From: Allomyces arbusculus
Taxonomy: Eukaryota > Blastocladiomycota > Blastocladiomycetes > Blastocladiales > Blastocladiaceae
Direction: 5' to 3'
Assembly: GCA_027604705.1 (NCBI GenBank)
Contig: JADHYV010000034.1
Location: 124,001 to 188,000 of the forward strand
DNA length: 64,000 nt
The notes beneath the pieces were generated by a model, which was not told the DNA's origin, made no database searches, and saw nothing but the letters and a program-made list of their open reading frames with translations. Shown in pieces: positions 26,493-56,215 of this stretch. A program made the translations under genes and the position numbers. Within the stretch, counting starts at the first letter, position 1, and the number at the start of each line of letters is the position of its first letter.

Positions 26493-26963
26493 ACGTGGTG
26501 GATGGTGGGGAAGAGAGGGGGGCGTAGAGAGAGTGGGCTGCGTTGAAGTTGTTGTTTTGGTCGTGGATTGATGCATGTTGTTCATTGTGGCCATGATCAA
26601 GAACAGAGCGTCTTTGAGTTGATGGTTATCCTGATGCGTGTTGCCAATCGCTGATTGTCCACTCCTAATCGGCGCAACTCCGATCACTTTCTGTTCAAGC
26701 TGCACCGTGCAATGCGAACGCGTTCAATTGCGCTTGTATTGTCTCTCAGCACGACCATCGATGTGGTTAGGCGGTTCATCTCTGCCTACATAGTGCGACT
26801 CGTGCGTGGCAGCATCCATAAAGAGAAAAATCTTTGCGATTGGTGATTGGCGATTGGCAAATGTGTTCGAATGCATGACGACAAAAATGCAAATGATGCG
26901 AATGTAAGAAAGAAAACAAAACAAAACAAAACAAAATCAAGCAAAAAGGAAACATAATCCGCT
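26493..26963. other. Convergent intergenic region UBR-like/giant gene
   Basis: 471 bases of 3' flank, less GC-rich than the genes on either side. No gene is seen. It ends in an A-rich tract next to the giant gene's stop codon. Confidence 0.6.
26913..26936. repeat. (AAAAC)n microsatellite
   Basis: Four AAAAC units plus AAAA, 28 bases past the giant gene's stop in its own direction. Confidence 0.9.
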
Positions 26964-29900
26964 TCAACCCGACGTTGGCTTGCGCGCCATCTTGGCCTTC
27001 TTACCCTTGACCGGCGCGCGCTTTCCGCCACGCTTCTGGATCGGGGCGTGCGACAGCTTGGTCGACTCACCCGACGACGACGTGATCGAGATTGCCGACA
27101 GGGACGGACGCTTCGAGAGCGCTGCCGGCGCCGGCGCGGTGTCGGACGCAAGCGAGTCCACTGACGGCCGCGCGCTCAAACGCATCGAGCCGTCGTCATG
27201 GTCGTCCTCGCCCTCCTCGATTTCTGAGTGGATGAGACTCGGCGTGGCCGACGACATCAGCTCGTCATCATCGGTCAGGTCGTCGTCCGTGGTCGCGCGA
27301 CTCGTGGTCGTGCTGGATCGCATGCTGCTGCTGCTCGCGACCGACTTGATCGACTGCAGGCTCGACAAGTGCTTCAGCGGCCGAGTACTCGTCGAGTCGG
27401 ACCCGGTCGTTGGCGCTGTCCGTTCCGTAATCAACGAGCGGTGGCCGGGCAGGCTCGGCACGTCCATCTTGGGTAGTTGCGCGCGCATCCACTTGCCGGC
27501 ATTCATAACGCTCCAGGCGGTGGAGTCGGCGGCGTTCGTGCCGTCGGTTGCAACGAGCTCGGCCTTGGTCGCGTGCTCGGTTTCGGCAGCCGGCGCGTCG
27601 TCGGTAGCGAGTGTCGGCTCGTCAGCGGCGGCAGTGGTCGCCGGTTCTTCGTTGGCATGGGCCACGGGCTCCACCTCGGCCGCGACCGTCTGCTCCTCCT
27701 CTACGGTCGGCTCCTCTTCCACAATCACGTTCTTTTCCCCGACCGCTTCCTCCTCAACAATCGCCTCCTCCTCCACGATCGACTTATCCTCCACGATCGC
27801 CTCTTCGCCCACAATCAGTTCCCCCTCCGCCGCCAGTTCCTCCTCAACAACTGGCTCTTCTTCCACCGTCAGGTCCTCCACAACGACTGTCATTTCGCGC
27901 TCTGCAACAACCGCCGGTTCGGCATCAGTAACGATAGCCAGCTCCTCCTCGGCAGCGACCGTGGGTTCTTCCTCATCCTCGACATCGGGAATCGGCATGA
28001 GACGGTCGGCCAGTTGTGAGCTGGTCGCGTCCTCGATGGCGACGCGATCGGCCGGTCCCGACAGGTCCGTGCCTACGACATCCACATTCGCGGACTGGAC
28101 TTGAGCCAGCTTCGTCAAGAACGACCAGAGGCCGACGTTCGAGGCCGTCACCATGGCATCGGGACTGGATGCCGATGCAATACTTGCAGCCACGCCATCT
28201 TGGTCTGACAGCACGCTCGCGGCCGTGGGGGATGTGGGTCCCGAAACAGGCGCGTCGCGATGGGAGCTAATTGATGAGAAACTCGTCGCTCGGGAGCGCA
28301 TCCACCGACCGACACTCGACGATGCTTGATCAGCGGAATGAACCGCGTTCGTGTCCAGCGCAACCGCCGTGGCCATGGTCTGGTGGGTGTCAACGCGCTC
28401 CGACACGAGACCTCCCGTCAAACTGGAACTGGACGCTCGCCGGCTCCGAGTGCTCGTCGTGGATGTGATCGGCCACGTGCTTGATGGGTGCTGCGTGCTC
28501 GCCGTAATCGCGTGAGGCTCATGGTCGTCGTGCTTACGGTGCTTCTTTTTCGGCGCACGCTTCCCGCCGCGCTTCTGGGTCGGCACGGCGTGCAATTTGA
28601 TCGACCTGCCCGACGACGACTCGATCGAATTCGCCGACAAGGATGGGCGCTTGGAGAGCGTTGGCGGCGCGGCAGCCTCCGTCGACGTGGCGTCAGACGC
28701 GAGCGAGTCCATGGACGGCCGCGCGCTCAACTGCATGGTCTCGTGGTCGGCTTCCTCTTCCTCCTCGCTGTCACTGTCCGAGTGGATCAGCTCCGACGCA
28801 AGACTCGGCGCGGTGGAAGGCGCCAGCTCGTCGTTTTCGGTCATATCATCGCCATCAGTGACTACGAGGCTCGTGGCATTGCTCGCTTGCGCGCTACCGG
28901 CAGCGTCCTTGGTCGACTCTGTGAAGAACATGGAGTCGAGGGACGCCGTGGTGGGCGGAGCGAGGTCCGGGACCGACGCGCGGCGCACGGGCACAATGGC
29001 GGGGAGACTAGGCACCTCGAGCCTGGGGATCTGCGAGCGCATCCACCGGGCCGTGTTCATGACGCTCCAGCTCGTCGGGTCGGCGACATATGCGTCAGGC
29101 ACAGTGACAGCTGCGCTGGTCACGGGCGCATCGTGTTCGACGTGCTCCGATGCGGAACTTGCGGCCGAACCGGAACTTGACGCGCGCCGGCTGACCGACT
29201 GAGTGGTGAAAGTGGTCATAACATTTTGCACCGTCGACGAATGCTTGGTCGACTGCGTGGCGGTGGTCGTGTGCACTTGCGATTCCTCGTGCTTGCGGTA
29301 CTTCTTCTTTGGCGCACGCTTCCCGCCGCGCTTCTGGGTCGGCACGGCGTGCAACTTGGCAGATCCCGACGACGACGACGTGACTGAAATTGCCGACAGG
29401 GATGGTCGCTTCGACAGCGTCGAGGTGGTGCCACTTGACGTGGGCGCAGCATTGGATGCGAGCGAATCCATGGACGGCCGCGTGCTCGGAACCGCGGAGC
29501 TGTCGTCGTTGTCCTCTTCTTCCTCCTCAATTTCCGAGTGGCTCAAATCCGACGGCGCGAGACTGGGCTCAGTCGACGGCACCAACTCCTCATCGTCCGC
29601 GTCGTAGTTGTTGGCCGCGAGAATCGTGTCTTTACCGGACCGCGGGCTGGTGGCGCTGGTGGGCGAAAACTCCACGGTCTCGGTGCGCTCCGTGACGGCC
29701 GTGACGCGACCAACAATCACGTGCGGTAAACTGGGCACGTCGATCACGGGCAGCTTTTCGTGTATCCACCGGCCGACACCCCAACCCTCAACGTAGCGAG
29801 TGGGATTGGTGGTGATTTGGTCGGCCGAGTTTGGAATAGCCGCAGCATCCTCAGCGACCACTTGGGCGCCGACCTGAGTCGAAACCGAATCCACGGTCAT

Positions 29901-30100
29901 CGCGACATCGACAACATCCTTGCTTGCGAATTGCGTGTTGCTCACGACAGACACGGCTGTGGGTGATGCAGGTTCGACAGCAGCTGGCGCGCCGTGGTCG
30001 GGCACGACGGGTCGCGAGCCGGGAACACTGACCGTGGGAACTGTCGCGCGCATCCACCGACTTGCACTCATCGTCGCCCAGTCGGGGGCGCTGACACGAA
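26964..30100 (-). repeat. C-terminal Trp/basic repeat array of the giant protein
   Basis: Four or five units. Each starts with a short amphipathic motif: SASRWMR near 30060, GVGRWIHEKLP near 29775, NTARWMRSQIPRLEVPSLP near 29030, SSVGRWMRSR near 28300 and NAGKWMRAQLPKMDVPSLP near 27475. Downstream come acidic S-x-x-E-E-E runs, RPSMDSLAS-like and LSKRPSLSA motifs (R/K-x-x-S, basophilic-kinase-like), and a QKRGGKRAP basic block in three of the units (near 29320, 28565 and 27020). Confidence 0.85.
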
Positions 30101-33100
30101 CCAAAGGCGTCGGTTCTTTGATCTTGGTAGGGGTCGTGGCGACAGCGCTCGGGAAAGAACTCGCAGCCGTTTCCGTTTGCTCGACGAGCATATCTTCCTC
30201 GGCGTTCGACACGATCGTGACGGCTGCGTGCGGCGGGACAGGCGTTGCGCAGCTGGACGCGTCAGACCGCTCGCTGGCCACGTCCGACTCGGTCAAAATC
30301 TGCACGAGTTCTGTATCGGCCGCCGTCTCGCTGACCTGCTGGTCGTACGAGTCGAGCTTAGTCTTTTCAGAGCGATCCAACCAGAGGTCAGTATCAACAG
30401 CGGAATCGACAGCGACCAGCGGCGCGGGTAGCGGGGTCGGCTTGACGTCGTCCGTTGCTGGCATGGGCTCGTTGAAATCGGCCTCGAGCGGCGAGGGCTT
30501 TTGGACGCGCGCGTCGTGGTCGGCCAAAACGGTCGGCGATGATGGCACCAAAGCGCTGCCGTCAGCACCGCCCAGCTCGAGCTGGATCGGCTCAAGACGA
30601 GGTGTGCATTCGTCCTCGTCGACCGCACTTGCATCAAGAATATCGAGCGTGGGCAAGCCCTCAAAATGTGCGGGCTCGCAGACCAGCGACGGAACTGCGG
30701 TGGCGTGTACGTCCCGCAGGTCCTCTGCGGTCAGCGCCAAAGCACCTGAGTCAAGGACAACGGCTGTCGTGGCCGAGTTTTCGGGCTGCGGCGGCTGAAG
30801 GCCTGGTGACGGCGGGCGGAAACCGACCACCGAAATGGGCGCCGTAAACACGGCTGATGCAGACGAGCCTACGCTCAACGAAGAAGCGCTCGTGGTCGAA
30901 GTGGCGGTGGAGGTGCTTGAGGTCGACGACGAGTGGCTGATGAGCGTGGTGGAGTGGCTCACGGTCGTCGTCGAGTGTCGGACAATCTTGGTCAAGTGGT
31001 GGGTCGTCGACGACGAGAGGCTTGTCGACGTGGTGCCGGCGATCCGGGCAGACCCACTTACGCTGATACGTGCGGAGCTCGCAGCGTCGTTGGTCGAGTG
31101 AGCGTCGGCAATGGACGCGGCTGTGGGCGTAGACGTATCGAGCTGCAACTCAACGGCTTGCTCTTCGACTTGAGCGAAATCAACTTGCTGGAAATCGGTC
31201 TGATCGAAATCGGCCTGCGTCTGAGCAGATTCGTCTAGCTCGACCGCGACAGGTTCCACGGGTTGCCGAATAGCGGGCGGTGACGCCGTGGCGAACATGG
31301 TCGCGTCCGGTTCAAGCAGAGCGGCCCCTGGAATTGCGACAGCGGTTGTGGATGCGGCCGGCGCAAAATGCACGCCATCGTCGAGCAGCAATTCGTCCAC
31401 TAGGGAGACGACGTTATCTTCGAGCAAATCCGTTGCAGGAGCAATGACCGTGGTCAAACCTGAATCGGCCAGCGCACTCGTACTGGTGACCAAGTCTTGC
31501 GCGAGCTGGACAGATGATGAGCTGCTGGCGGCAATTGCGGACGCAGCGAGGTTGGTGCGCGCGTCGAATTGCGACTGATGCGCAGCTTCCATGCCAGGAA
31601 TCAAGGTCTCCGACGTGATACCATGCGTTGAATGAACCAGTGCGGAATCCACGAGGGCCACTGCCGGTTCAATCAGATCAGCGCGTGCAATGGATTCTGC
31701 AGTCGCCGCTTGCGCCGAGTGGGTTGGTGCCTCGCTCACGAGGATCGGCGTGATGACCTGCTGGGCGTCCGTGATCGCACTGATGATCGTCGAGAGGGCC
31801 GAGACCACAATAGTCGACGCTTCCTCGACAAGACTCAAGTGTGCATCAGCATCCACTGCCGCCACATTGTGCGTTTGGGCGTCCGCTGAGAGAACGAGTG
31901 AGTCCACGGGCAGCACAGTTGCTGGCGGGTTGAGGACGACCTCGGCGGCCAATTCTGGTCGCGCGTCGGTATCCAGCACCAGATCCGACAGCATCTCCAC
32001 GGCCACATCCGCGTCGGGCTCTGCTGCAATGATGACAGGCGATGCGACCGTAAAGCCGGGCGATGCGCCGGGCGATGCGACCGCGCTGAGAACAGGTGGC
32101 TGGGCCGAGGGAATGGGCGAGATTGAGGCGAGGGCCGTCGACGTGGCCGCGATGACGGGCGATGCGATATCGAAACCCACAGCATCGTCAAGGCCGTGCG
32201 TCACAGTGGGCGGACGCACAACGGCCGTTGCGAGTGTAACTTGCTCACTGGCCAGCGCGACCGACGCATTGTCAACACGACTCGCCCCAAATTCGGCCTC
32301 GAATGGCGCTGCAAACGCGTCGTTGGCAACATCCACTGGCGTGGCGAGGTCGACTGAGATCGCGGGCACCGGCTCATCGTTCTCGGCGACAGGAGCCGGC
32401 TTGTCGCCGTTGTCCGCCGTGGAAACATGATCACTCAGATTCACGTCGACTGCGGCGCTGGCGCTCGTGTCCAAAGTGGCCGCGTGGTCGTCCTCGACCA
32501 GAGACTCGAGCACCGGTTCGGGAACAGGGGTGGAGCTGTCAGGACCAAACGATTGCAGATTGGTCGCGTCCAATTCCATGGAGACGACCGCCGGTGGTTG
32601 AAGGGGCGTGACGAGGTCGGTCTCAGCCGACTGCACGCTGGCCGCGTCGGCATCCGCTGTGACCAGCGCCGGCTCCGGAGCGAGCAGGTCAAACTTTGCT
32701 GGTTGCGCGGAAGCCAAAAAATCAGCACCGTCGCCGCTCAAATTACCCTTGATCGGCTGCAGGTCGACAATTCCCGCACTCACGTCGGCAACGTCAGGCT
32801 GGGACACGAGTGCAACTTGGACGGGTCCGAGATCCGAAGTCGAAAACTCGGTCGTCTCAGCAAACAGCAGCTCGTCGGCGCTTTCGGCCAACGTGGGCTT
32901 GTCGGCCAGCACGGCCGACACGTCATCACCGCGACTCGGCTCGACTTGGACCTTAATTGGCGTCGCAAACGCCGCATCCATGGGAGTGGCAAGGTCGGTT
33001 TCCTCATCACCGTGAGCGTCTTGATGAAAAGCCCCGTCAAACAGCGTGCTATCCACTGTGAACTCATTTTGCAGCACCTCTTGCTCGCCGATGTCGCTGT

Positions 33101-36100
33101 GGAACACGCTCGACTCGATGTTTTCGTAGATGACGGCCGTCTCGTGCGACTCGATGATCTGGCCGTGGATCACGGCCATTTCGTGCGACTCGATCTGCTC
33201 CTCGGCCTGGCTGAACGTCGCGTCCGACATGGCAATGTCACTGGGCGGCACTACCGGCTCAGCAAACTTGCTTGATGGCGCGGCCGGTTCAGCATGCTGG
33301 ATGGGCAGCGTCTCCGCGGCCTCTTCCAGCAGCCCGTCGGCGACCTCATACAATAGGGCTTCCTGCTCCTCGCTATGCAAAGCGGCAGCGGCATTCTCGA
33401 CCAGCACGTCGTGCTTTTCGGCAAAAGTTGCGTCTGCGGCCTCACTAGACGGCACGTTGAACTCGGCCTCCTCATCTTGCGTCACGTCAGCGGATTCCTC
33501 AAATGCCTTCTGGGTCTCCACGACCTCGATGCGCGACTCGTGAACGGTTTCGACGTGTGCTTCGGAAGCGACCTCTGCGCTGTCCTCGCGCACCGCATCC
33601 AGGTCGGCATCTTGGCAGAGCGGCGCATCACCGGACTCGTCCAACACTGCCTCGTCGCCGTGGTCTTGGCCGACGGCCACGCTGAGCGGTGTGTCTGCCC
33701 GACCGTGCTCGATGCCGTCAATGTGGACTGGGACCGGGTCGGCAATATCGGTGTGCAACGGGTCCACGGTCTCGTCCGACTCGCTCTGCAATACATCCAC
33801 CACCTTTTCGGCCTGCGACACATCCGCGACCTCGTCAAACGCAGTCTCGAGTGCTGTGATCTCCTCCTGCATCACGTCCGCGGCCCCGGCGTTACCGGGA
33901 AGCGGCGTGTTCACGACCTGTGGCGCATCCGCTGCATCCGTGCACAGCGCTTCGTGCAGCGTGCCCTCGCCTTCCGCCGCGTCCAAATCGGCGTCTTTTT
34001 GGCCGAGCGACGTATTAGCGGCTTCGTCTTCCTCGTCGCGCATCGCGTCAGCGGCCTCGTGGAACAAAGTCTCGGGGTCCGGCTCGACACCCTCGCCTGA
34101 TGGCCCGGCCGCAGCAGTGTGCGCCAATATCTCCGTCTCCGTGACCTCGTTGAGCGAAACGTCGGCGTTCTGCTCCGGATCGTCTTGTAGCACATCAATG
34201 GCCTCGACCTTGATCTCAACAGACTCGCCGTGCGACGCGCTGGTGGGCGCGTGGAACAAGGTCTCAGGCTCAACGTCGTCGTCGAGCGACGCGTCAGAGA
34301 CATCGTGAACTGAGGCCTCGTCGTGCGACGTGCCAGCAGCCTCGTCTGAGGACATTACGAGCGCTGCGTCCGCGGTGAGCGGCTCGACCGCGGCGCTGTC
34401 GGACTCGTCCTGGAGTCCGTTTGCAATCTCGTCGACCAACGGTTCGGGTTCGGCATCCTCACGAAGTGGCGGATCAAAGGTCTCATCGAGTTGCGTTTCC
34501 GGCTCTGCGGCCTCGTCGTGGAAATCGTCAACGACTTGATCTTGCACGATGCTGTGCTCCGCAACGTCGGTGAGCGGTGCGATCGACTCGGAGTCTCTGC
34601 CATGCGGCACTTCCGCCAGTTCCTCGACCGTTGCATAGATGAACGCCATGTCTGACTCGTCCAGCAGGGCTACTTTCTCCTCGCCATGCAAAGCGGCAGC
34701 GACCTCCTCGACCAGCGCGTCGTGCTTTATGGCAAACAATGCGTCCGTGGTCACGCTGGACAGTGTGTCGAGCTCGGCTTCTTGGCTGTGCATCAGGTCA
34801 GCAGATTCCTCGACTGCTGTCTGAGGGTCCACAATGTCGTCATGCAAATCTTCAGTGGCCTCGACAAGCGCCTCGTGTACGACCTCGGTGCGTTCCTCGT
34901 GCACCACGTCCAGGTTGGCGTCTTGGCCATGTTCTGAGGCAACCTCGTCCAATGGCGCCTCGTCGTTGTCGAAACCCTGGTCGATCAAAGTGCCGGCCGC
35001 AGATTCCTCGGTCAACGGCGCTCCAACGTGGCCGTGCTCAGCGTCTTCGCCTTGGAGCGGGTCCGAGACAACCGGAATTGGCGTCATGGCCGCTGCCAAT
35101 TTGAATGCGCTCGTGGTCGATGACGAAAAGTGGCCCACGTTCGACGAAGTGTAGTTCGTCACCACGGTCGAATGGCTGATGACCGTGGTCGAGTTATTGA
35201 AAACTGGTGAGAATTCGTGAACTGCCGCCGCTGACGATGAGCCATCCGTGAAAAGAACTGACGCATCCTCAGTGGTGGCCTTGGAAACTTGTTCGCTCGC
35301 GTCCACGTCAGCTGCTGCGCTTGCTCTCATGTCCGAAACGGCCACATACTTGTCCTCGACCAAAGGTTCGAGCGTTTGCGCGGGAATGGGGGTCAACCCG
35401 TCGGAACCAAACGACTGCACGCCGGCAGCGCCCGACTCGATGGCGACGACTGCCGGTGGCGGGACCGGTGTGACGCGGTCGATCTCAGCCGACTGCACGC
35501 TGGTCGCATCGGCATTAGCTGCGGCCGCCGCCGGCTCTAGAACATACGCGTCAAGCACGGCCGGCTGTGCTGGCAGTGCGGGAGCCGTAAACTTGGCGCC
35601 GTCGCTGCTACCCAAATCACTCCTGATCGGCTTCACGTCCACAACCGCCACGCTCACGTTGGCAACGTCGAGCTCGGGCGCGAGCGCAACGTGGACGGGG
35701 GCGAGATCTGATGCCGGGAACCCGACCGTGTCGGCAAACTGCAGCTCGTTGGTGCTTTCAGCCAAGGCTGGCTTGTCGACCTTCACGACCGGCACATCGT
35801 CGCCGTGGCATGGCTCGATTTCGGCCTTGATCGGCGTCGCAAACGCGTTGTTGTCGGCCGCATCCATGGACGTGACGAGGTCGGCGTCCTCGTCATGGTG
35901 CACGTCTTGGCCAGAAATGTCGACAGACGACAAATTGTGTTGCGTCAACTCGTTGAAGAGCACATCTTGCTTGCTGACGTCGCCGTGGAACACATTCGAC
36001 TCAATGTCTTCGTCGATAACGGCCGTTTCGTGCGATTCGATGGTCTGGTCGTGGATCACGGCCGTTTCGTGTGACTCAACCTGCTCCTCGGCCTGGCTGA

Positions 36101-39100
36101 GAGCCGCGTCCGACTCGGAAATCTCACTTGACGGCGCGACTGGTTCAGCGGCCTCAATGCATAACGTGTCAGCAGCCTCGTCAAACAGGGCTACTTGCTC
36201 CTCGCCATGCAAAGCGGCAGCGGCCTCCTCGACCAGCGCGTCGTGTTTTTCGGCAAAAGATGCGTCCGCGGCCTCTCCAGACGGCGCGTCGAGCTCGGCC
36301 TCCTCGTCCTGCATCACGTCAGCGGATTCCTCATACGCTGTTTGGGTCTCCACGGCCTCGATGTGCGACTCGTGAACGGTTTTGACGTGTGCTTCGGAAA
36401 CGACCTCGGTATTTTCCTCGTGCACCATGTTCAGGTCGGCGTCATGGCCGTGCAGGGCATTAACAGCCTCATTAAACTCCGCCTCGTCGCCATGGTGGTC
36501 CTGGCCAAGCGGAGTATCGTGCACAGCGTCCCCACCGAGCAGCGTGTCAGAGCGGTCGTGCTCAACACTTTCGTTTTGGAGCGGGTCCAGGTGGAGGTGA
36601 TTGGAGTTCGACGTGTGAGAGGCCTTGTCTGATTCGATCTGCGATGCACTCACCGCCTCTTCGTGCAGCGACGCCTCCACGACCTCGTCAAACATAGTCT
36701 CGAGTACGGCGCCCTCGTCCTGGCGCATTTCGGCAACCTCGGAGCCGTCCACGAGCAATTTGTCCGGAATACCGCCGTCGACATGCAGTGCATCGGCGCT
36801 CACGCTCTGTGTCACAACAGCGGATTCCTGGTGAGACACTTCGTGCGTATCTTCCTCGACGGGTAACGCGCCCACGACCTCGTCAGTCTCGCTCTGCGAC
36901 GCGTCAGGCTCAGTATCCTCCACGAACGGCATTTCAGCAACCGCTTCCAGCTGCGCCTCGGCCTGAATCTCGTTTTCGAAGAGAGCCTCGGCTACTTGAT
37001 CGGATCGAGACTCGTGCCAAGCGCCGTGGCCATGTGTCGCGTCCAGGTCGGCGTCGTCAAGACGTGGCACATTGGCAGCCACGTCAAATGGCCTGCTCGC
37101 GGCAGGGAGCGTCATAATGCCATGACCGGTAATGACGGAGGACGCGACAGGACGAGTAGGCTGGAGAAGCTGTTGATCGGGCGATGGAGCACGGAACTTG
37201 ATGGTGGACACACTGGTGTTGCCACCTGCAGTCGATGCATCAGCGCGCGAGCTAGTTGTAGAGGTGCTTGAGGTCGACGAAGAATGGCTGGCAGCCGTGG
37301 TCGAGTGGTTCACGATTGTGGTCGAGTGGTGAATGACGGTCGAGAAGTGGTGGGTCGAGGTATGATGCGTCGAGGAATGATGCGTTGAGGTATGATGCGT
37401 TGAGGATGAATGGCTCGACGACGACGCGGTGCCTGTGGCCTGCATTTCCTCGATTGTGCCGCTGAGCGTTGAGTTGACAGCGTGATCGGCCAAGTCCACG
37501 TTGACGAGCAGCGATGCCGGTCGGTCGGCGGCCGAAAGCCGCGTGTCGAGCGCGTCAGAAAACTCGGTCGTGGGTAAATCGAGCGACGCGAGAGACTCAG
37601 GGTGAACAATATCGGCACTCGGCGCAGTCGGTGCCATCGTGTCGGACCTGCCGGCAGCGGGCGCGACGGCGGACGTGGTCGTGCTGATCAGTAACTCTTC
37701 AGACTGCCCATCGACTTCAACAACATTCTGCACGGAAACGGCCTGCGTCGGAGCCTTCGTGACTTCGATATGCGTGGTCGAAGTGGAGTCGGCTTGCACC
37801 CACGACTCGTCCTGCGCGATCTGAGTCTGCACCAGCGCTTCCGTGATCTCAAATTGAGTCTCCGACTGCACCGTCTCGGTTTGCGCTGTGGCTTCTTCAG
37901 ACGCCGAAGTCTCCACAAAGACCAAGCCCTCGGCGGACTGCATGGACTCCGCCACAGCGGGTTCGACCGGCTGCCTACCGGCGGGGGGCGACGCTGCCGT
38001 GGATGCGGTCGAGTCGGGCGCATCCTGGGTGATGGGCGTAAGTGGAACGACTGCGGGCACAGCAAGAACAGCTGGGATTGTCGATGCGGTGGGCACAGAA
38101 ACGACGACCGTGTTTGCCAATGCAGCGGGCGCAGATTGCAAATCGCCGTCTTTCAGCAGCTCCTGTGACTGGGCCGTGGTCGCAGAATCGCCGCGGCTTT
38201 GGTCCAGCACAGCTGCATCGATTGCGGTCGAGACTGAATCAATGTGCTCGACAGAACTGGTGGCCGTAGTGTGCGACGCGATGACGCTGATCGTGCTGCC
38301 GGAGATAAGCGTCGACGAGGACACGCTGGTTCGACCAGCCGTTTCAATGACCGTGTAGCTGTGCCCATGCGTACTTTGGCTCGGCACCTGGACGATAGCA
38401 ACATCGGTGCGCGTTGCGGCACCAAACGCGCTGGTCTTTGTGGCCGCCACATTGGCGGACGTCTCCGTCGGGACATGATCAATGCGTCCAGCAGCGGTTC
38501 CAGCATCATCAAGCCGAGCAGCTGCACCAAGCTCATGATGGGCACTTGTTGCGCTGCTGGAGAGAAGCGCCGGCGACGATGGCGACGACAACAACGAGAC
38601 AGCGTCGGCGCTTTCGGTGGCGCCGACAATATCGACGTGGGCGGCCACGCCATGCTCATGGTGGACAATCGTTGTGCTACTGGCAGGAATCGCAGGCACG
38701 TTAACGTCGGTGCGCGAACCAGCACCAACCACATTGAAACTCTCGGCCGCGACCTGCAAATGGTGGGAAGTGGTCGCGCTGCTGGTGAAAGTCGACGACG
38801 AGCTTGGGTCCATGTGAATAACCGTGCTTGTTTCAGCACTGTGCGCCACGCTGCCGATCGCCGACGCAAACAGATCAGTGCGCGATGTGGCACTCGATGC
38901 CGAACCATGCGTCGATTGCACGGGTGCTTGGGCAGCAAGGACCGCAGACATGGTCTGGTCGGCGTGCCCAACCGCATCGACCGTCGCTTCAAGCACCGCA
39001 ATCAAATCAGTGCGCGCGACTGGTTTGGTGGCCACTTCTTGAGTAGTCTCCGAGGAAATAACAGCCGAAGAGACCGAGTCGGCGCTTGTGGCGCTATCAA

Positions 39101-42100
39101 TCGTCGCGGCATGTGCCGCCGTCGAGTGAAGCGAACTTGACTCGGAAACGTCCACTTGCGAGACCAAACTGGTTTCCACGCCCGACCCGATGACCGATTC
39201 AAAATCAGCCGACGTCTCGGTCGGGTGGGTGCCCAAGTCGACAACCATGATCGTACTTTGCACCAGCGGCTGAATGGGCAGCTCGGGAGCTGGGACCGCA
39301 ACGTGCGTCGACTCAGCCTTGGCCGTATCAGGGTGGACGACGACGGTATCGGCCAAATCCGAACGCGTATCAGCACCCAGCTCGACATGAACGCTTTCCC
39401 CGTGCACCGCATCCACGACCGGCGACATGGCCGCAATAATCGGCGATACGGCAGTGATGGGTGGGGTCGGAAGAACAGGAGACGCGGCGGTCACGACAAA
39501 CGACGCCGAATCCTGGTCCTCAGCATCGCTGTGACTCTGCGTGGTGCTTGCAGGGCGAGCCACGTCAAAATTCGAGCCCACTGCAACGGGCAACAGTTCA
39601 ACTTGCGCAGCTTCCTCGGCGTTGCTAATAATAAGCGCAGCGCCTGGTGCGCCTGGCTCGAAATTTACCCCAGGTGCCGGTGAGCCGACAAGCTCCGACG
39701 CGGCACCGACGTGATCAATGACGTCGGCATTGCTCACGGCCACTGTCTCGTGGGCAACGATGGTCGTGTTGGTTTCAAAATTGATCGAGTCGAGTTCCGT
39801 GTAGGCGCTTGCGTGTTCAATAGCGTGGGGGCCGCTCGTAGCCGTCTCCTCGTGCGCGAGGTTGGTGGTGGCGGCGGTGGCGGTGGTCTGGAGCGTGGTC
39901 GAGTTGATCTCCGTCGTGATCGAGCCCACGCCGGGCGAAATAAGCACGGCCGCAGCGGCCGTTGCGGCCTGCGTTGAATGCGCGCTGCCGTGAGACACTT
40001 GGGCCAGATCCGACGCGACACCGACAACCTCAGAAGCCGATTCCGTGCGCGCGTCGACAATGCTCGTGGAACTGTGCGCATGATGGGCACTCGTCGTGTT
40101 GCTGGTGGTAGTGCTCGAGTGACTGCTGGTGCTCGAGTAGCTGCTGGTATGCGTGTGCGTGTGCGTGTGCGTGTGGATGTGCGTATGCGTGTGCGAGCTG
40201 GTGTGGCTGCTGTTGACAACGCTCGTGTTGATGCTCGAGTTGCTGCTGTTGAGAATGCTCGCGCTGCTGCTGCTGTTGTGAACCGCCGACGAGCTCGACG
40301 AGATGCTGGTGCTGTGCGCGGCCTGGCCCAATGCCGACCCAGCAACGGCGGCTGGTACGGTAAGATCGGTGGCTAAATCAGCCGACTCGACCTGTTCGGT
40401 GAGCACGACACCGACAGCAGCTGGTGCGACCAAGTCGGTGGACGAAACCGCCGACTCGACCTCCCCGCTGTGGACGATGCCGCTCACGGCTGCCGACCCG
40501 ACCAAATCGGTGCTCACGACCGCCGAGTCGACCTGTTCGGTATACACGACGCCTCCAACGGCCGTTTGGTGCGCAGGTTCGACTTGCTCGATGCGCTCAT
40601 CAGCGCTGACAGTCATTTTCTGCGCCAACTCGACTTGCTCGATGCACTCAGCAGCGCCGATGGTCGTGCTGTGCGCAGTTTCGGCTGGTACCGCGACAGC
40701 AAGGTCGGCGGACGCGACCAAATTCGTGCGCGCGTCAAATTCAGCAGTCGCGTCCTCATCGGTCGACGTTGCGGAGGAGAGAGGTGCCGACGCGACCTGG
40801 TTGGTGTCGGTGACTTGCTCGACGTGCGTTGCCATCGAGTGAGCGTGGCCCGACGCGATCGAGCTCGATTGCGACTCGGACTCGGCGTGCACGACAGAGC
40901 TCGTGGTGACGCTGTGCGTCGTCGACACGGATTGGGTGTCCAATTCCGGAACCACGGCCGAGCCATGTGCCCAAGATTGCGCGTGCGACTCGACAACGGG
41001 GATCGCAACCTCCGTGGACTCTTCCACAGGGTGGACAAGACCACTGCTGACCGTATCTTGGCGCGAGGCAGCAAGCAGTATATCCGCCGGAACCGACTCA
41101 ACGTGGGCGCACGCCGCAGAATGCTCAATGTCCGACGACGACGTGCCCGTGATGATGGTCGACGTGGCCTCGGAAATAGCCGAAATTACAGTGGAAATGG
41201 TCGAAATCGCCGCGGAAATGGACGTGCTGGTCGTGGAAATCATTGACGTTGCAGTCGACGCGGCCGAATCGACCACGGAATCTGTCGACAACGATTCGGG
41301 AATCAGCGACCCGTGGTCCGGGACCGTAGCTGACCCATGGTCCTGTGCCCCCGTGGACGGCGGCGCCGACACGACGTGCTGCGACGCCTCTGTTGACAGC
41401 GCCACGACCTGGTCGCCTTCCTCCGTGTGGAAGATTCCACTCGACACTTCGGCCTGGTCAATGGCTGTGAGGGTCGGCGCCGACTGGTCGGCCGCGACGC
41501 TAGCATGCACGCCACTGGGTGCGGTGGCGTCGAGCACGTCGTGAGTCTCCAAATCCGGCAAGTCGGCGTCGTGGTCTTCGTCGCGCGTGCATGGCTCGGT
41601 CGGAGACTGGATTTCGGCGACGGCGGCGGCGTCGGCCTTGGTGGTGCTGCTTTCAGTCGATGCTGAAGTGGCGTCGCCTTCGTCTTCGACCTTGCCCACC
41701 AAGACTGGATCGAGCAGAACATGGTCGTTCTGTGAATGGAAAAACACCCGCAACAAGTACAAGAGTGGGTCAGCGAAAACTGAAAATCTCCACAAAGGGT
41801 TGGTACAAACAACGCCAGCATCAATTCAATCTGAATGCTCCGATCGCACCAGAGCCTCTTCACTCAACTGCGCTTCGGTTGTTTCCGTCTGGAACGACCA
41901 ATCAGCGGCGTCAACGGCAAGTGGGGCGCCCTCGTCGACTGTGGTTGCCGGTACCGGCTCCTCGTCCGTGTAAGCCGTGGAAACTTGCTCGTTCGCGTCC
42001 ACATCCACTGCTGCGCTGGCGCTCGCGTCCGAATCGGCCACGTGCTCATCCTCGATTGGCGACTTGAGCGTCTGTCCGGGAACAGGGGTCGAGCCGTCGG

Positions 42101-45100
42101 AACCAAAGGACTGCTCGCTGGCGGCATCCGACTTGATGGCAATGACCGCAGGCTGCGGCACGGGCGTGACGCGGTCGGTCTCGGCGGTCTCGGCCGACTG
42201 CACACTGGCCGCGTCGGCATCCCCCGCAACCAATGCCGGCTCCACGTCAAACTCGGCCGGTCGTGGTGGCAGCGCGGGCGCCGAAAAATGCACGTCGTCG
42301 CCGCTACTCACATCACCCTTGGTCGGCTGCACATTGACAATCGCCGCGCTCAACTCAGCAACGTCGAGCTCGGGCGCGAGCGCAACGTGGACGGTCTCAA
42401 GTTCGGTCGTCGCAAACACGGCCGTCTCGGTGAACAGCTCGTCGGTGCTTTCGGCCAATCCGGGCTTGACGGTCTGCACGACCGGCACGTCGTCGCCGCG
42501 AGTCGGCTCGATTTCGGCCTCGATGGGCGACGCAAGCGCGTCGTCGTCAGCCGCGTACACGGGCATGGTGACGTAAGCGTTCTCGTCATGGCGCGCGTCT
42601 TGGCCAGAAACTTCGACAGACAGCAGATCGTGTTGCGTCAACTCGTTGGAATGCACTTCCTGCTCCTCAGCCTGGCTGAGAGCACCGTGCGACTCGGAAA
42701 TCTCGCTCGGCGGCGCGACCAGTTCGGCGGTCTCGATGCGCAAGGCGTCGGCGGCCTCGTCCAGCAGCGCACTGGCGGCCTCGTCAGCGGCCTCCGCGAC
42801 CACCGCGTCTTGCGCTGCGGTAAACGACGAGTCCGAGGCCTCGCTAGATGCCACGTCAAGTTCGGCATTTTCGGCTTGCGTCAGGTCAGCCGATTCCTCG
42901 AACGTTGTATGAGTCCCCACGATCTCAACGTGTGAGTCGTGAACAGCGTCGACGCACAAATCGGAAGCGAGTTCCGTGCAGTCCTCGTGCGCCACGTTCT
43001 GGTCGGCGTCTTGGCCAAGCGGCGCATCAACAGCCTCGTCCAAGGCCGCGTCGTCGTTTTGGTCCTGACCAACCGACGTGTCGTGCACAGCGTCCTCGGC
43101 GAGCGGCGTGTCAGCACGGTCATGTTCAGTGCCGTCGGCTTGGACCGGGTCCGGGCCGACGTGATCGTCGCTCGATGCGTCAGCGGCCTCGTCCGACGCG
43201 CTCTGCGACACATGCGCTGTCACCTCGGCCTGCGACGCAACTGCGACCTCGTCAACTGCGGTCTCGAGCACAGCGCTGCTCTCGTCTTGCAGCGTCTCAG
43301 TGGCCTCGGGGTCGTCGGCAAGCGGCGCGTCCACGACCTGCAGTGAATCGGCAGCCTCTGTGAGCAGATCCTCGCCATGCGACGCATCTGAATCGGCGTC
43401 ATCCTCGCCGAGCGAAGTGTCGGCGGCCTCGTTCTCTTCGCCTCGCACCGTGTCGGCGAGATCGTGGAACAAAGTCTCGGGCTCGGGCTCGACACCCTCG
43501 CCACCCGACACGGTCACGACATTGTGCGCCAAAGTCTCCGTCTCAGTGCCCTCGGTGACCGAAACGTCGGCCGTCGGCTCTGGCTGGTCTTGGGGGAGAT
43601 CCACGGCCTCGATGGCCTCGTCAAACTTTGCGTCGGCGGGCTCGTGGAACAAGGTCTCCGGCTCAACGTCCTCGCTGAGCGAGGTGTCGGAAGCGTCGTG
43701 GATCGGGGTCTCGTCGTCGGACGCGTCGGCGCCTTGGCCCGCTGTCATTTCGAGCACAGCTTCCTGGGCGAGCGACGCGGCCGCGGCCTCGTCCGACTCG
43801 TCCTGGATCACGTCCGCGACCTCGACGACCAAAGCCTCCGGCCCGGCCTCCTCGTTGAGCGGCGCGTCCGTCGGTTCGCCCAGTTCGACCTCTGGGGCAG
43901 TTTCTTCCGCCTGCAACGCGCCAGCGGCCTCCTCGTGCTGCGGTTCAGGCTCAGGGGCCGCGTCGAGTTGCGGCTCGGGGTCAGTGTCTTCGCCGTGCAA
44001 ATCGTCAACGACTTGGTCTTGCTCCACGTTTTGTGCGGCGGCGTCCTCGAGCGACGCGTCCCAGTTGGCGTCCTCGCCATGTGGCACATCAGCCGAGTCC
44101 TCAGCCATGGGCTCAGCGTCGTGACCGTAGAACGCGGCCGCGACGTCGTTCTCGACATGCGGCTCGTCCACGGACTCGGCGATGAACTCGACGGATTCGA
44201 CTTGCGGCTCGTCAACAGCCTCATCGGCCAGCAGTTCTTGCTCAGCGCCCTCGACAATCTGCGCACCCGGATCAGCGACCTCGCCATGCGACACGTCCGC
44301 AGCCTCATCAAACGGTGCGTCCGCCGCGGGCAACGTGAGTGCGCCGGCGTCAATGACGACCGTCGTGACCACAGCCGGACTCGCCGGTCGTGACAGCTCC
44401 TGGCGGTCAGGCGACGGCACGCGGAACCCAACGACCGAAATCGGCGTCGACGCTGTACCCGACGTCGATGTGCTCGTCGGCGATGATGCCGAGTGGCTCG
44501 TAACTATCGCCACCTGGCTCCCGGCCGTCGTGGGCTGGCGCTCCGACGACGCCTGGCTGGTCGTTGACCACGTGGTACTCGCGGCGCGGCCCGGATCACT
44601 GCGCGCCGGGCTCGTGGCCCGGAATGTATCGGTCAATGGTGACGTGGGCGCGTCAGCGTCCCAGAACGGCGCGTCAAGAACGTCCACGAGTTCGGCGGCG
44701 GGCAGTTCCAGGGAAATTTGCGACCGGTGGAGCGTGATGTTGGTCCGCGACACGGTCGGGGTCGCAACGTCGAGCCCATCGGCGAGGGACGCGGCGGTGG
44801 GTGTTGGCGCGTCGAGTGGGGAGCCGATGGAGGGATCCTCGGCACACTCGACGTTGGTTTGCGAGATGGTGGTGTGTGCCGACCCGTGCGCGGTGTCGAC
44901 TTGCGCCGATTCCTGTACAGTCTCGGCCAGCGTCGGTGCTGGAACGGGCGCGGGTAGGGCTGCCGGGAGTGTCTGCAGCATAGGTTCGGGTAGAACAGCT
45001 GGCAGTGCCTGTGGCACGGGCTCGGGCAAAACAATCGGCAATACCTGCGGCAAGGGCTCGTCCACGACAGGTTCCACCGGTTGCCGGATCGCGGGCGGTG

Positions 45101-46745
45101 ACGCCGTTGCAAACACGGTCGAGTCCGGCTCGGGTTGCGCAGCCGCAGGTTCAGCGACGGTGATGGCGGGCATGACCTGCACGACGTCGTCGTGCGGCAG
45201 CTCGTATGCCGGGACCACGGCGTCAGTGTGCGCCGGTTCCGGAAGGGAGGGCACGACCGTGGTCGACACGGAATCGCCCGGTGCGTCAGCGTTCGTGCCG
45301 TGCACGACTTGGACGGACAATGAGCTGCCGGTGGGCACGACTTGGACGGACAATGAGCTGCCAGCGGGAACGACTTGGACGGACAATGCGCTGCCGGCGG
45401 GAATCACCGTCGAGACGAGGTCGGTGCGCGTGGGAGTCGCAACGGTGTCGACGCTTGTGGTCGCGTGGTCATGGACCGTTGTCATGCCGCTGGCCAGCGT
45501 CTCCGACTCGACGAGCTCCGTGCGCGTCATGTCGGCAGCAGGGCTCGTCGACGTGATCAACTCGGTGCGCATCGCGGCACCACTGCCCTCGCCTCTTGTG
45601 GTCGACCCGTGCGTGTGATGATGATGCACCGTCGTCGTCGAAGTGCTGCTGCTGCTGCTGCTCGTGTGGGACGTGTAATGCTTGGTGTGCGAGCTCGTGT
45701 GCACCGTGTGCATACTCGACGTTGCCGACTGTCCATGCTGGGCTGACGGCGTCGGGCTGCTGGTGCTGGATTCCGACGAAACCTGGTCGACGGGTCCGCT
45801 CGTGGTCGAACCATGTGCGTCCTGGGTCATCGTCGTCGCCGTCTTGCCAGCATCAGGCGTCACCAATGGCAGGCCCTGCGCGACGGCGCCTGCGATCGCG
45901 CCGGCGATCGCGCCCGCAGCAACACTCAGTGCCAGCTGACTCGGGGCCAGGGCTGCCGGAGCGACCAGATCCGTGCGCATCACCGATCCGACCTGCGCCA
46001 AAAGAGCGGCTGCGTCACTCGCCGCAAGCGCCGTCGGCAGCGATGCCGGCTCGGCGTGCGCCGAATCCATGATCGTGAACCCCGTCTGCGCAACGACTTG
46101 CGCGCCTTGCGTCTCGGCCTCCACCGCATGCACCTGGTCGACGGATTCGGCGCCCGGAAGCACCAATTGCGCGGGCTGCGTGGCAGCGGCGGCCGGGTCC
46201 GGGCTGTAGATGACGGTCGCGGCCGATTGCGGGCGCGCACCCGTGTCCAGCGTTGCGGCGGGTAGTGGCTCGGCGGGTGCGAGGGATGCTGGGGCGCCCA
46301 GGACGGGCGACGCGGCGGCCAGAATTGGCGATGCGGCCGTGAGGATCGGCGAGGCCGGGTCGGGAACGACGGCACTGTGAGCCGCGGGCGGGGCTGGTAC
46401 TTGCACGGCCTCGTCGACTTGGGTAGTGCCATGCGTTGTGCTCGACGCGTGGGCCTCGACGGTCGTCGTAGGTGCCGATGCGACCGAGTCTGCGGTCGTG
46501 GTGGCGTGCCCGTTGGCGTGTGCGCCGTCCGCCGTGGCGGTGTCGTGGTGCACAATGCTGTCGTCGCCGTTGGCCGGCGGGACCGGCGAGGTGGTGCCGT
46601 GGTCGAGGTCGAGCAGGAACGGCTCGGCCTGCGACTGCGCGTCAGCATCGATGACGCCACTTGCGCCGCTCGGTGCAGCAGCAGCAGCGTCGAGCTCGAC
46701 GGCGCTCGAGTTGCCCATGGTCGGGACCGGCGGGACGTGGTCGAT
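26964..46745 (-). CDS. Giant repetitive Ser/Thr/Ala/Glu-rich protein (about 6,500 residues)
   Basis: Two long exons, 46745-41850 and 41729-26964, joined across a 120-base GTGCGA/CAG intron in phase 0. From the Met at 46718 the product is 6,544 residues. I recognise no enzyme or family domain. The sequence is low-complexity and modular. Ser/Thr/Ala-rich stretches with many R-T/A-D/N-L motifs alternate with His/Ser/Thr tracts and with long acidic modules (DEAADA, HGED-type). Motifs recur about every 7 kb: PPAIRQPVEP near 45090, 37975 (as PPAGRQPVEP) and 31270; F-R/K-x-PSP near 44420, 37190 and 30830. The last 1,000 residues contain W-M-R repeats, KRPSLSA motifs and basic QKRGGKRAPKKK blocks. 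Exon 1 begins at an acceptor, not an isolated start, and the upstream PQ-loop frame overlaps it, so it may be the C-terminal part of that gene. Frame integrity over nearly 20 kb and repeats conserved at protein level argue that it is real. Confidence 0.8.
32390..35150 (-). repeat. Acidic module III of the giant protein
   Basis: Roughly 900-residue Asp/Glu/Ala-rich block containing, in order, VEELAEVPHG, VQDQVVDD, DVEPETLFH, EGVEPDPETLFHEAADA, FEESADVTQDEEAE and, at its end, TPVPEPVLESLVEDDHA. The same order of motifs is found in module I and partly in module II. Confidence 0.8.
35300..37200 (-). repeat. Acidic module II of the giant protein
   Basis: Begins after the KFRAPSPDQQ motif. It contains GGDAVHDTPLGQD, YEESADVMQDEEAE, LSQAEEQVESHE, ALAPELDVANVS and ends with TPIPAQTLEPLVEDKYVA. 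It lies directly against module III, so these two look like the youngest internal duplication. Confidence 0.8.
40147..40195 (-). repeat. Thr-His dipeptide tract, alternating GT/GC-rich DNA
   Basis: Almost perfect alternation of purine and pyrimidine (GTGTGC-like hexamers) inside the giant gene, encoding a HTHTHIHTHTHTHT-type tract. Such DNA can adopt Z form and expand by slippage (established knowledge). Confidence 0.85.
41960..44440 (-). repeat. Acidic module I of the giant protein
   Basis: Follows the GFRVPSPDRQ motif. It contains SADVPHGEDAN, VEQDQVVDDLHGED, DVEPETLFHEPADA, GEGVEPEPETLFHDLADT, AEDAVHDTSVGQD, ALAPELDVAELS and ends with TPVPGQTLKSPIEDEHVA. It matches modules II and III in motif order, with the closest match to II in its second half. 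Confidence 0.8.
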
Positions 46746-46797
46746 CTACGGAGCAAATTATCAGGCGGTCAGCATCCATCCTCGCACTTCGTTGCAC

Positions 46798-48499
46798 ATC
46801 CTCTGCTGAAACCAAATAATATCGAACCGTCGACGCGCTCTCCGTCAACTTCTCCAAAATCAGCGACTTGACCGCGGCCGTAGAACCCGCATGCGGCGAC
46901 GCCACGAGCCGTGGCGACCTCAGCGACCGCAGCGATGTGCCGGGCACGACGGGACTCGTCGCGCGTGCGCCTGTCTCGACCGACGCGATCCCAATCAAAC
47001 TCGGCGCGACCGTGCCCGCATCTTCCACAAGCAACGATGCCGTCTCATCCAGCGCGCCCGCATCCGACGACGACGTCCATGACGCCGCGTGCCGCACAGG
47101 CACACCATTCCCGGTCCCCGGTGCAGGCAGGCCGGCCTCGGACGGCGACGACAGGTCCGACGTATCTTCAGGGTCATAGAGCATTTCCGACGCGTTGGGC
47201 AGGAGCAGTTGCGCGAATTCGGTCCCCGGCGATGTGGCCACAAACAAGTCCGACTCGCTGGCCTCGGCCGCGACCCGGCGGCGCGCGCGGCGGGCGTAGA
47301 TCAGGCTCATAACGAGCAGCGACCCCTGGCACGTGGCAGCAACGACGTACGACAAGTAGGTCGAGATATTGGTCCCGGGCCGGGCTGCGAGCGAGTAAAT
47401 CAACAAGAGCGTTCCGGGCGTCTGCATCATCATGGTCAGGATCGACAGCGCGCCGGGCCGCTTGGTCCGGTAAGTCTCGGCGATTTGCGGCAAAAACTGC
47501 AGGCACGACATGCCCGTGGAGATCGCGCCAAAGCAGGCGGCCGCGGTTTGCACGGCGACGCGGTAGGCGGCGGGCGGAGCGATGGTGCTGTAGATGTCGA
47601 GCGCCATCCACAGGCCCAGGACTGCGATTAAGTAGAGCGTTACGCCGGCACCGATCATTTGCGAGGTGCGCCATGCGGGCGCCGGGATCGAGCACCGCTC
47701 GCAGGTTGTGTAGGTGACGGTGTTGGGCCGACGCGAGGGGGCGTGCACGTGTTCCGTAGTCGTGGTGATCGTGGTCGTCGTCGTGGTCGCGGCCACGTCG
47801 GCGAGCAGCGGCGTCGTCTCAGTCGATGAGCCGGTCGCGATGCCCGTGATGCGGAGGATGCGCTTGTAGCGGACCGGGTAGTAAACCAGGAAGAGCACGA
47901 GGCTATGCAAAGGGGAGGGAGACAGAATTTGGTCGTCGAGGGTCAGCAGGGATCACCAACATCAACCAGCGGCAGCGCATGCAAACAAGCAGCGGGCAAC
48001 ACGCACATGAGCAAGAACATGACCGCCTGCGACGCGACCTGAATGAGGCCAAGCGCATTCTCAAAGCACGTCAGCGGCGACTATGGAAGGATTTGGCGGC
48101 CGGGCGGTGCGGGCGGGGGACGTGAGTACGTGGCCGTGAGAAGCCGAAATGATCTCTGGGAAACGACCAAGAACGGACCCAGACGTCACAACACCGGAGC
48201 ACGTCGTGCTGGAGCAGCGCGACATTGGCCACGGTCGAGATGCACGAGACCGACCCGAGCAGCAAAAAGTAGGGAGAGAGGCCCTCGGAGGACCGCAACT
48301 CGACGATCTTGAGCTGCTGCGGCACGTAGGAGAGCACGATGCCGACGAGCAGAAACAGCGATATGCCGAAATTGGCCGGGTCGTGCGCGTCGGGGCACGT
48401 GTCGCCGGGCAGCGCTGCCAGCGGCGGCGACGGCGGGACGAGCAGCACCATGGCGGGCGGCGGCGACGCAAAGTCGAGGAAGCGCGCGGGCGCGTCCAT
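46798..48499 (-). CDS. PQ-loop repeat membrane protein (fungal type)
   Basis: Seven-helix PQ-loop protein; relatives are lysosomal/vacuolar amino-acid or ER transporters or regulators. Exons 48499-48185, 48080-48007 and 47902 to about 46798. PQ motif 1 lies in helix 2 (GIVLSYVPQQLKIV), followed by SSEGLSPYFLLLGSVS. CFENALGLIQVASQAVMFLL joins FLVYYPVRYKR across intron 2, as in other fungal members. PQ motif 2 (CLQFLPQIAETYRTKRPGA) and SLLVMSLIYARRARRR follow, then a Ser/Thr/Ala-rich tail. The end is uncertain. Its frame stays open to 46642, past the giant gene's first Met at 46718, and three phase-0 donors (after 46798 and about 15 and 30 bases before it) can all splice in frame to the acceptor at 46746. 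A fusion with the giant protein is therefore likely. Confidence 0.85.
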
Positions 48500-49061
48500 G
48501 GCGGAGAAGCCGGCAAGAGGGAGGCGGGGCTCACGGTTGCGGCAGGAGGTGCGGTTTGCTGCGCAGGCCGAGGCGGAGCGTCGTGGTGGTGGCGGTGCGC
48601 GCAGTGACGTTAGACGGTGGTCGTGGTGGTCGTTGGATGGTGGTGTGTAGTTGATGATGGTGTGTTGTTGATGATGGTCTGTCAAATCGCGTGAGCTGGC
48701 CCACCAGATCGCGTTGCTGCCTGCGGGTCGTCGTTTTCCGTCTCGCTGCCCGCCTGCCAGGTGGAAGTGGCCGCTTCGAGCACTGCGCTTTGGGCCGGCG
48801 TGCGGTGGAAAAGGAAGGTCGCTGCCTGCTTTCTTTGGAAGGAACAGCGCACGTCTCGCACCGCTCAGTCACCTGACCCGTTGCCGTCTCGCATGACTCA
48901 CGCAGCACCTCCTCATTTCCCGTCATGCTCCTTTCTCACGCTCAACACAACCAAACCCGATCAAACCCCACACGAAAAACCGCAAATGCCAATGGATAAA
49001 ACCCTCTCCACCATGCACTCCACCCGTCTCCACCCGTCTCCACCCGCGCACGCCCGCCCGC
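48500..49061. other. Intergenic region between PP4 end and PQ-loop start
   Basis: 562 bases. Both flanking genes are on the minus strand. Short repeats of TGGTGTGT/TGATGATGG type near 48640-48680 probably lie in the PQ-loop promoter or 5' UTR. No gene is seen. Confidence 0.5.
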
Positions 49062-50212
49062 TCACAAAAAGTAGTCGGGCGTCGCCTTCTTTGCCGGAAT
49101 CCCGCGCGCGTCCTGCGACGCCGGGTGGAAAATCACAAAGTTGCGGCTCAGCTTGTCGTCGAGCTCGAGAATCGCCGCCACGTTGCCGCACCGGTAGCAG
49201 TACTGAGATTTGTCAGAGTCGGTTGTCAATGAACGTTCTCCCTGCCCCACCTTAAAAGAACCAAGCAGATGATACGCACATTTGGCGCCGACCAGACCGT
49301 CACCACCGTATCCTTGAACATGTGCTTGTACCCCTCCATGACCAGCTGGTGCGCGCGCGCAATCAGCTCCAAGTTATTCGCGTGCAAGAACGCCGCCACG
49401 ACATCCCCACCAAACAGGTATCCCGCGCCCCGCGGACTGACCCCCCACCCATCAATCTCCTCGGGGTCCGACCACAACAAGTCGCACATGGCGCCGTCGT
49501 GCGGTACTTCCTGTTTCCGATCAATCGTGCGAATCTGGTCGAGCGTCGTGATCGACGGCGAGAGGCCACCGTGCACGCACAGGATCCGGTCGTCCACGAG
49601 CGCGGCGAGCGCCAAGTAATCAAAGATCTCACAGCAGTACCGCCACACGTTGACAGAACCGTACTTGCGCAAACACTCGTCGTAAAAACCATACACTTGC
49701 GTGATTTGCCGCGACTCGTGGTTGCCGCGAATCAACGTGATCCGGTCGGGGTACCGCACCTTGAGCGCCAACAGCAGCAGGAACGTCTCGACCGAGTAGA
49801 AGCCGCGGTCCACAAAGTCGCCTACGTTCCACGTACGTCCATCAGCACACTAAGGTCTTTCCGCGTCCCCACACCCGTCGTCGCGTTAACATACCCATGA
49901 AGAGGTAATTCGTGTCCGGGCAATCATGCCCAACCGAAAACAGCTCCATCAAATCATAAAACTGGCCGTGAATGTCCCCGCAAATCGTCACGGGCGCGTC
50001 GACGCGCTGCACGTTGGCCTCCTCGATCAAGATCTCGCGCGCCTTGTTGCACAGCTCGCGCACCTCCGACTCCTTAATCAGCTCGCACTTGCGCAGCTGC
50101 GCAATCTGGCTATCCAAAGAAGCAGCAGCTTCATGAGACCGAGTGGGCGGGCAAAGGTGGGGTGATCGGCAAGCGGGAGTCACGCATACCGGTCGAGGTC
50201 CGACGTGCCCAT
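49062..50212 (-). CDS. PPH3: Serine/threonine protein phosphatase 4 catalytic subunit
   Basis: PP2A-like metallophosphatase (PP4C; Pph3 in yeast) acting in DNA-damage recovery and other nuclear and cytosolic signalling. Exons 50212-50190, 50109-49895, 49821-49280 and 49202-49062 give 306 residues (human 307). [18 protein letters not shown] is the PP4-type N-terminus. Metal and catalytic motifs are intact: [17 protein letters not shown] (across intron 2), RGNHESRQ, and the later HGGLSPS and [11 protein letters not shown]. The tail [15 protein letters not shown] matches PP4 (RGIPSKK..DYFL) rather than PP2A or PP6, with the terminal Leu that is carboxymethylated in the family. Confidence 0.97.
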
Positions 50213-56074: not shown

Positions 56075-56215
56075 TGATGAGTGGCAAGATTTGGAAGCGA
56101 CTGGGTGGATGGAGACTCGTTGGAGGGTAAGGTACTGAATGAATACATTTTCAATTCAGGAACCAAGGAACAACACACCCACAGCAAGACTAAACCAAAC
56201 ACCAAACGACGCGAC

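Follow-up and report, generated by a model that had tools for sequence, protein, structure and literature searches.

PQ-loop proteins are small transporters or receptors, among them the vacuolar and lysosomal cationic amino-acid transporters Ypq1, Ypq2, Ypq3 and PQLC2, in which a W..GD..N stretch after the first PQ motif is a family-wide feature. The passages available on yeast Ypq1 place an EQQPLL motif in its second cytosolic loop (PMC4649669), and those on Any1 report a lumenal N-terminus and a cytosolic C-terminus for this and other PQ-loop proteins (PMC11893163). Here we describe a minus-strand locus in a 64,000-nucleotide stretch of Allomyces arbusculus DNA (hereafter the window; contig C34, JADHYV010000034.1, 124001-188000, in a 25.9-Mb genome of 197 contigs) that probably holds a single five-exon gene, in which an 82-nt GT-AG intron links the coding sequence of a membrane protein with two PQ-loop repeats to that of a C-terminal tail of about 6,550 residues. 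Positions given below are those of the window.

An earlier reading of the window, referred to here as the original prediction, had proposed that long frames are joined in phase by a GT-AG intron to give a protein of about 7,050 residues; the frames were confirmed, on the minus strand, and their joining was supported. Open frames of 1,639 codons (46745-41826) and 4,953 codons (41825-26964) follow the intron at 46827-46746, and the five-exon model (Table 1) comprises 7,043 codons with no internal stop (~725 kDa, pI 4.15), of which 6,553 residues form the tail past the junction; the predicted residues at the exon 3/exon 4 junction are LTESAST before and IDHVPPVPTMGNSS after it. The model comes from a semi-Markov gene finder whose unsupervised training used 200 kb of contig C1 and positions 1-26500 and 48900-64000 of the window, with the locus excluded; as the program is self-trained, the fused gene is a predicted model and the margins are model scores. 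The trained gene finder returned 95 genes and 247 introns (median length 75 nt); donors followed a G|GTRCGT consensus, acceptors were YAG and starts were CCACCATGG-like. CTGAC, a motif that forms no part of its model, was the top-enriched 5-mer near predicted intron ends (8.5-fold). In a free decode the program, unprompted, spliced the PQ-loop gene onto the giant frames at 46827-46746 and connected the two giant frames via 41849-41730.

The coding score changes sharply at this junction. All 15 of the 30-nt blocks between 47280 and 46831 scored positive in the PQ-loop frame. Over intron 3, which has a GC content of 48%, the next three blocks (46830-46741) were negative whichever frame was read, and from 46745 on the giant frame was coding-like, including the nine codons ahead of the first ATG; at 30-nt resolution, the coding signal of the PQ-loop frame ends at the donor at 46827. 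That the PQ-loop frame runs on beyond the junction, as had been claimed, is correct, since it is free of stops until 46642. The three alternative in-frame donors that had been listed fared less well: 13 GTs are in phase within 47260-46788, but scores above 1 were reached at just two of them, 46827 (4.87) and 47097 (3.28), of which the former alone agrees with the coding signal.

The fused model was favoured in 18/18 parameter settings by 15.2-18.4 nats, a margin larger than those of 91% of 125 introns sampled from the same gene finder, which start at about 1 nat (5th percentile), and when the acceptor at 46746 was removed the best alternative was 16.8 nats worse and needed a 41-nt intron. Forced fusion of 30 tandem gene pairs left them 3.0 to 188.4 nats below splitting (one pair, 196 nt apart, among the 31 measured for spacing is missing from this set). 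As the tandem pairs and the sampled introns were defined by the same decoder, the signs of these comparisons hold by construction and only their sizes are informative. Together with the branch motif and the coding/non-coding/coding switch, the margins argue for the single fused gene of the original prediction.

The acceptor of intron 3 (CTCCGTAG) lies at the 89th percentile of predicted sites, which agrees with its earlier description as a good one, with the qualification that it doubles as the TAG stop bounding the giant open frame and is there partly by construction. Any open frame is preceded by a stop codon, and a TAG is similar to an acceptor, so the site was dropped as stand-alone proof; it still counts as evidence because as good a score is reached by only 3.6% of the 1,353 TAGs in 200 kb. 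The A of the CTGAC motif, which had been recognised as branch-like, stands 23 nt from the intron end, in line with a median of 24 nt among the 116/249 predicted introns with CTRAC, a median that leans towards 22 as the copy nearest 22 nt was taken in introns with several. Of the 249 predicted introns, 35% carry CTRAC at 15-35 nt, versus 2.5% of 4,035 YAG sites. The coding sequence of the giant (19,700 nt) contains no equally strong donor-acceptor pair at a spacing of 60-110 nt, its sites above the thresholds being 12 donors and one acceptor. A gene model with an intron-joined isoform is, in our judgement, well supported by these sequence features and likely correct.

The tail consists of 15% Ala, 12% Ser, 10% Val, 9% Thr and 17% Asp plus Glu, with a computed charge of about -858 at pH 7, a composition that points to disorder. 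Comparison of the tail with itself (chunked BLAST) gave 23 repeat pairs, of which 13 link the two giant exons, and the dN/dS values of the eight pairs measured were 0.38-0.62 (0.42-0.55 in four exon 4-exon 5 pairs), somewhat lowered by the alignment of the pairs as proteins. With these values the tail looks like real protein. The opposing explanation, in which the giant frames are an antisense or low-complexity artefact instead of a protein gene, or the contig is misjoined at the locus, could draw on the very biased composition, on the lack of any match of the whole tail to Pfam at E up to 1 and on the lack of a PDB match for its last 1,091 residues. It is nevertheless highly improbable, given 14.7 kb without a stop, dN/dS in the above range in 8/8 measured repeat pairs and, with respect to misjoining, a 351-nt junction stretch that has a single match in the genome, inside a 245-kb contig. 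Three pieces of the tail (154, 291 and 247 aa) searched against the rest of the genome gave only matches of E 0.03-0.36 outside the gene. Within the C-terminal repeats there are five R/K-W-M/I-R/H sites (VPSLP following three of them), three SKRPSLS and three QKRGGKRAP, in a tail with only 19 Trp among 6,553 residues; these tryptophan-containing and basic units are possible docking repeats.

In the PQ-loop part both PF04193 matches lie above the curated cut-off (Table 1), and helices 5 and 6 of the putative seven were assigned by comparison with paralogues. Positive residues number 17 in the cytosolic and 4 in the lumenal loops, with loop borders set by hand (eight in loop 3, three in loop 5, five after helix 7 and one in each of the other five), a distribution that predicts a lumenal N-terminus and a cytosolic C-terminal exit. 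The original prediction had allowed the tail to be cytosolic or lumenal; a cytosolic start is the option predicted here, and a tail starting in the lumen was dropped because of the concentration of positive residues in loops 3 and 5 and after helix 7. The acidic dileucine ETTPLL aligns with ESTPLL of the C32 paralogue. Given the family topology and an ETTPLL placed as in Ypq1, the best reading suggests vacuolar residence, with the tail beginning in the cytosol. Both Ypq-like paralogues of the genome, C4 (L001/L007) and C32 (L005), carry an ExTPLL dileucine, in one case close to the C-terminus, as is reported for PQLC2, and in the other within the loop preceding the second PQ, as is reported for Ypq1.

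Several observations weigh against a single fused gene of this architecture. Hydropathy alone (segments above 1.5) gives five of the seven helices, and a phmmer search of the PQ-loop part against the PDB gave no match. Within the tail, 19-residue windows exceed a hydropathy of 1.5 in five stretches. The strongest (aa 756-785, 45861-45950 on the minus strand, 2.06, Ala/Gly/Ile-rich, LALSVAAGAIAGAIAGAVAQGLPLV) matches helices of the PQ-loop part in hydropathy, and the tail may touch or cross a membrane again at such stretches. At the junction, the GTTCGA donor reaches only the 35th percentile of predicted sites; as for the rest of the gene, two of its three remaining introns have CTRAC at 40 nt from their end and the third has none. 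The free decode also split the last exon at 37240/37115, a break that was dropped because the unbroken gene costs only 0.47 nat more; it then uses an extra intron at 28309-28205. With a score of 7.06, the start context of ATG 46718 ranks in the top 2.4% of 1,600 ATGs in the window and at the 59th percentile among predicted starts; no further in-frame Met follows until 216 codons on. This ATG sits ten codons into the tail, in which Met accounts for 69/6,553 residues, and 10/305 internal in-frame ATGs score as high; its start credit is already counted within the split score. As the ATG is strong, some weight has to be left to a separate or an additional giant-only product beside the fusion. Such a protein would start MGNSS..., which we take to be a possible N-myristoylation motif.

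The strong start context at 46718 is the first argument for two genes, in which the PQ-loop gene would end near 46827, a sequence error, a recent stop-loss or an unmodelled splice concealing its stop, and the giant would be a separate gene from ATG 46718. The second is that granting a free unseen stop at 46827 leaves a likelihood gap to the fusion of only about 5.3 nats (4.44 versus -0.90), before any error prior, and a sequence error near 46827 is therefore the most serious rival. The PQ-loop frame, however, has no stop before 46642, the branch motif and acceptor of an intron are both in place, and the 27 nt ahead of ATG 46718 are coding-like (+4.2), as in 3/92 predicted starts versus 22% of 1,749 internal windows. 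Moreover, unfused genes would be arranged unusually, as had been foreseen: they would overlap or sit within about 110 nt of each other, while 1/31 tandem pairs is spaced by less than 190 nt (the two closest are 64 and 196 nt apart). The shared-decoder controls, the selection of branch distances and the hydrophobic stretches of the tail led us to lower the odds of the single fused gene and to raise those of two genes, which we consider distinctly unlikely all the same.

A further arrangement, compatible with the single fused gene, would have the fused transcript beside a 551-aa PQ-loop protein (intron 3 retained) and the giant alone, from 46718 via a putative internal promoter, the splicing of one intron toggling the products. 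The PQ-loop frame reads through intron 3 without a stop, and since the intron's length is not a multiple of three a retention product would end at 46642; the strong ATG 46718 would suit the giant-only product. The 61 PQ-loop-frame codons past 46827, on the other hand, score -27 as coding, and we hold the coexistence of these products to be possible though rather unlikely.

For the single fused gene, the frames, splice signals, coding switch, shared repeats and tail composition are properties of the DNA itself; by analogy, from the family topology and ETTPLL, the PQ-loop part would sit in the vacuolar membrane with its N-terminus in the lumen, delivered by AP-3, and the acidic Ala/Ser/Thr/Asp/Glu-rich tail would leave the membrane on the cytosolic side. 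The solute moved across the vacuolar membrane by the PQ-loop part might be a small one, possibly a cationic amino acid. The tail might act as a polyanionic brush on the cytosolic face of that membrane, gathering cations or partner proteins and holding other membranes off, and its basic and tryptophan-containing repeats near the C-terminus might provide docking sites. We offer only tentatively the full scheme of a vacuolar PQ-loop transporter with a 6,550-residue polyanionic brush that arose by internal duplication; in this scheme, whether a 551-aa transporter or a 725-kDa organelle-coating protein is made would depend on retention of the 82-nt intron. If true, a tail about 19 times the length of the membrane part would represent a novel means of covering the surface of an organelle and a clear example of splicing that anchors a giant, disordered-looking protein to a transporter.

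Table 1. Coordinates of the predicted five-exon gene and of associated features in the window
Feature	Position	Strand	Details
Exon 1	48179..48499	-	ATG 48499, first PQ repeat; gene finder; Pfam PQ-loop E 1.8e-8 on frame 48074-48868
Intron 1	48081..48178	-	98 nt, GTCCGT...CCATAG, no CTRAC motif
Exon 2	48007..48080	-	Gene-finder model
Intron 2	47903..48006	-	104 nt, GTGCGT...GCATAG
Exon 3	46828..47902	-	Remainder of PQ-loop part: second PQ repeat (Pfam E 1.2e-10), then basic/serine-rich stretch up to junction
ETTPLL acidic dileucine	47803..47820	-	aa 160-165, second cytosolic loop; sole [DE]xxPL[LI] in 7,043 aa
Intron 3 (fusion junction)	46746..46827	-	82 nt, phase 0, GTTCGA donor, CTGAC branch motif (A at 46769), CCGTAG acceptor
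First in-frame giant ATG (MGNSSAVEL...)	46716..46718	-	Context CCGACCATGG; possible alternative or separate start
First PQ-loop-frame stop upon intron 3 retention	46642..46644	-	Product 551 aa
Exon 4, first giant exon	41850..46745	-	aa 491-2122
Acidic repeat block, exon 4 copy	41892..43895	-	aa 1441-2108; self-comparison, dN/dS
Intron 4, joins both giant frames	41730..41849	-	120 nt, GTGCGA...TCACAG, margin 8.6 nats
Exon 5, second giant exon and stop	26964..41729	-	aa 2123-7043
Acidic repeat block, second copy (exon 5)	35247..36800	-	aa 3766-4283; self-comparison, dN/dS
Acidic repeat block, third copy (exon 5)	32313..34502	-	aa 4532-5261; self-comparison, dN/dS
C-terminal repeats	26967..30080	-	aa 6006-7043 (~1,040 residues)
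Optional in-frame intron in last giant exon	28309-28205	-	105 nt; if spliced, 7,008 aa (35 residues fewer)

The neighbours of the gene in the window are ordinary nuclear genes (a UBR1-like ligase, a NatA auxiliary subunit, an eIF3 subunit, a calcineurin-like phosphatase and CAP), and an IFT57 match in the genome (E 7.7e-41) suggests a flagellated organism, with which a zoosporic fungus would agree. Opposite the giant, on the plus strand (26908-45618), there are many open frames of 200-495 aa, which are probably shadows of its codon bias.

Seven other PQ-loop proteins were modelled in the genome, five of 285-409 aa (C4, C32, C3, C96 and C10) and two, on C115, of 135 and 182 aa; they have PF04193 matches (the first C115 gene by eye only), and all end at a stop with none carrying a giant tail. 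The two short C115 genes adjoin each other (L037 310-847 and 1700-2396) and have a single PQ-like segment each, resembling half-size, SemiSWEET-like transporters. Like Ypq1, Ypq2, Ypq3 and PQLC2, the fusion protein has two PQ-loop repeats and a predicted cytosolic C-terminal exit, and it shares with Ypq1 an ExxPLL in the second cytosolic loop; unlike them it lacks the GD..N stretch after the first PQ, which both Ypq-like paralogues (C4 and C32) show and in place of which it has LGSVSCISTVAN, and it runs some 6,550 residues past the junction. Membership in the Ypq/PQLC2 group was dropped for want of W..GD..N. With the PQ-loop scramblase group of Any1/Cfs1 and PQLC1 it would have in common a seven-helix PQ-loop architecture with a cytosolic C-terminus (PMC11893163), whereas Cfs1, as far as the accessible text describes it, is without the first PQ motif (PMC5217107) that is present in the fusion protein; the C96 protein, also without the first PQ, fits Any1/Cfs1 better by eye. 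The Stm1-like class 4 fungal receptors resemble it in that PF04193 stands for their class, but coupling of the fusion protein to G proteins is without support, and the passages at hand are silent on a giant tail (PMC12842992). Among the open-access PMC papers listed in the searches, no title or abstract opening describes a PQ-loop protein with a giant tail. The predicted fusion protein belongs to the PQ-loop kind and is not a new kind of system, and what sets it apart is a tail far longer than that of any PQ-loop protein met in the searches made.

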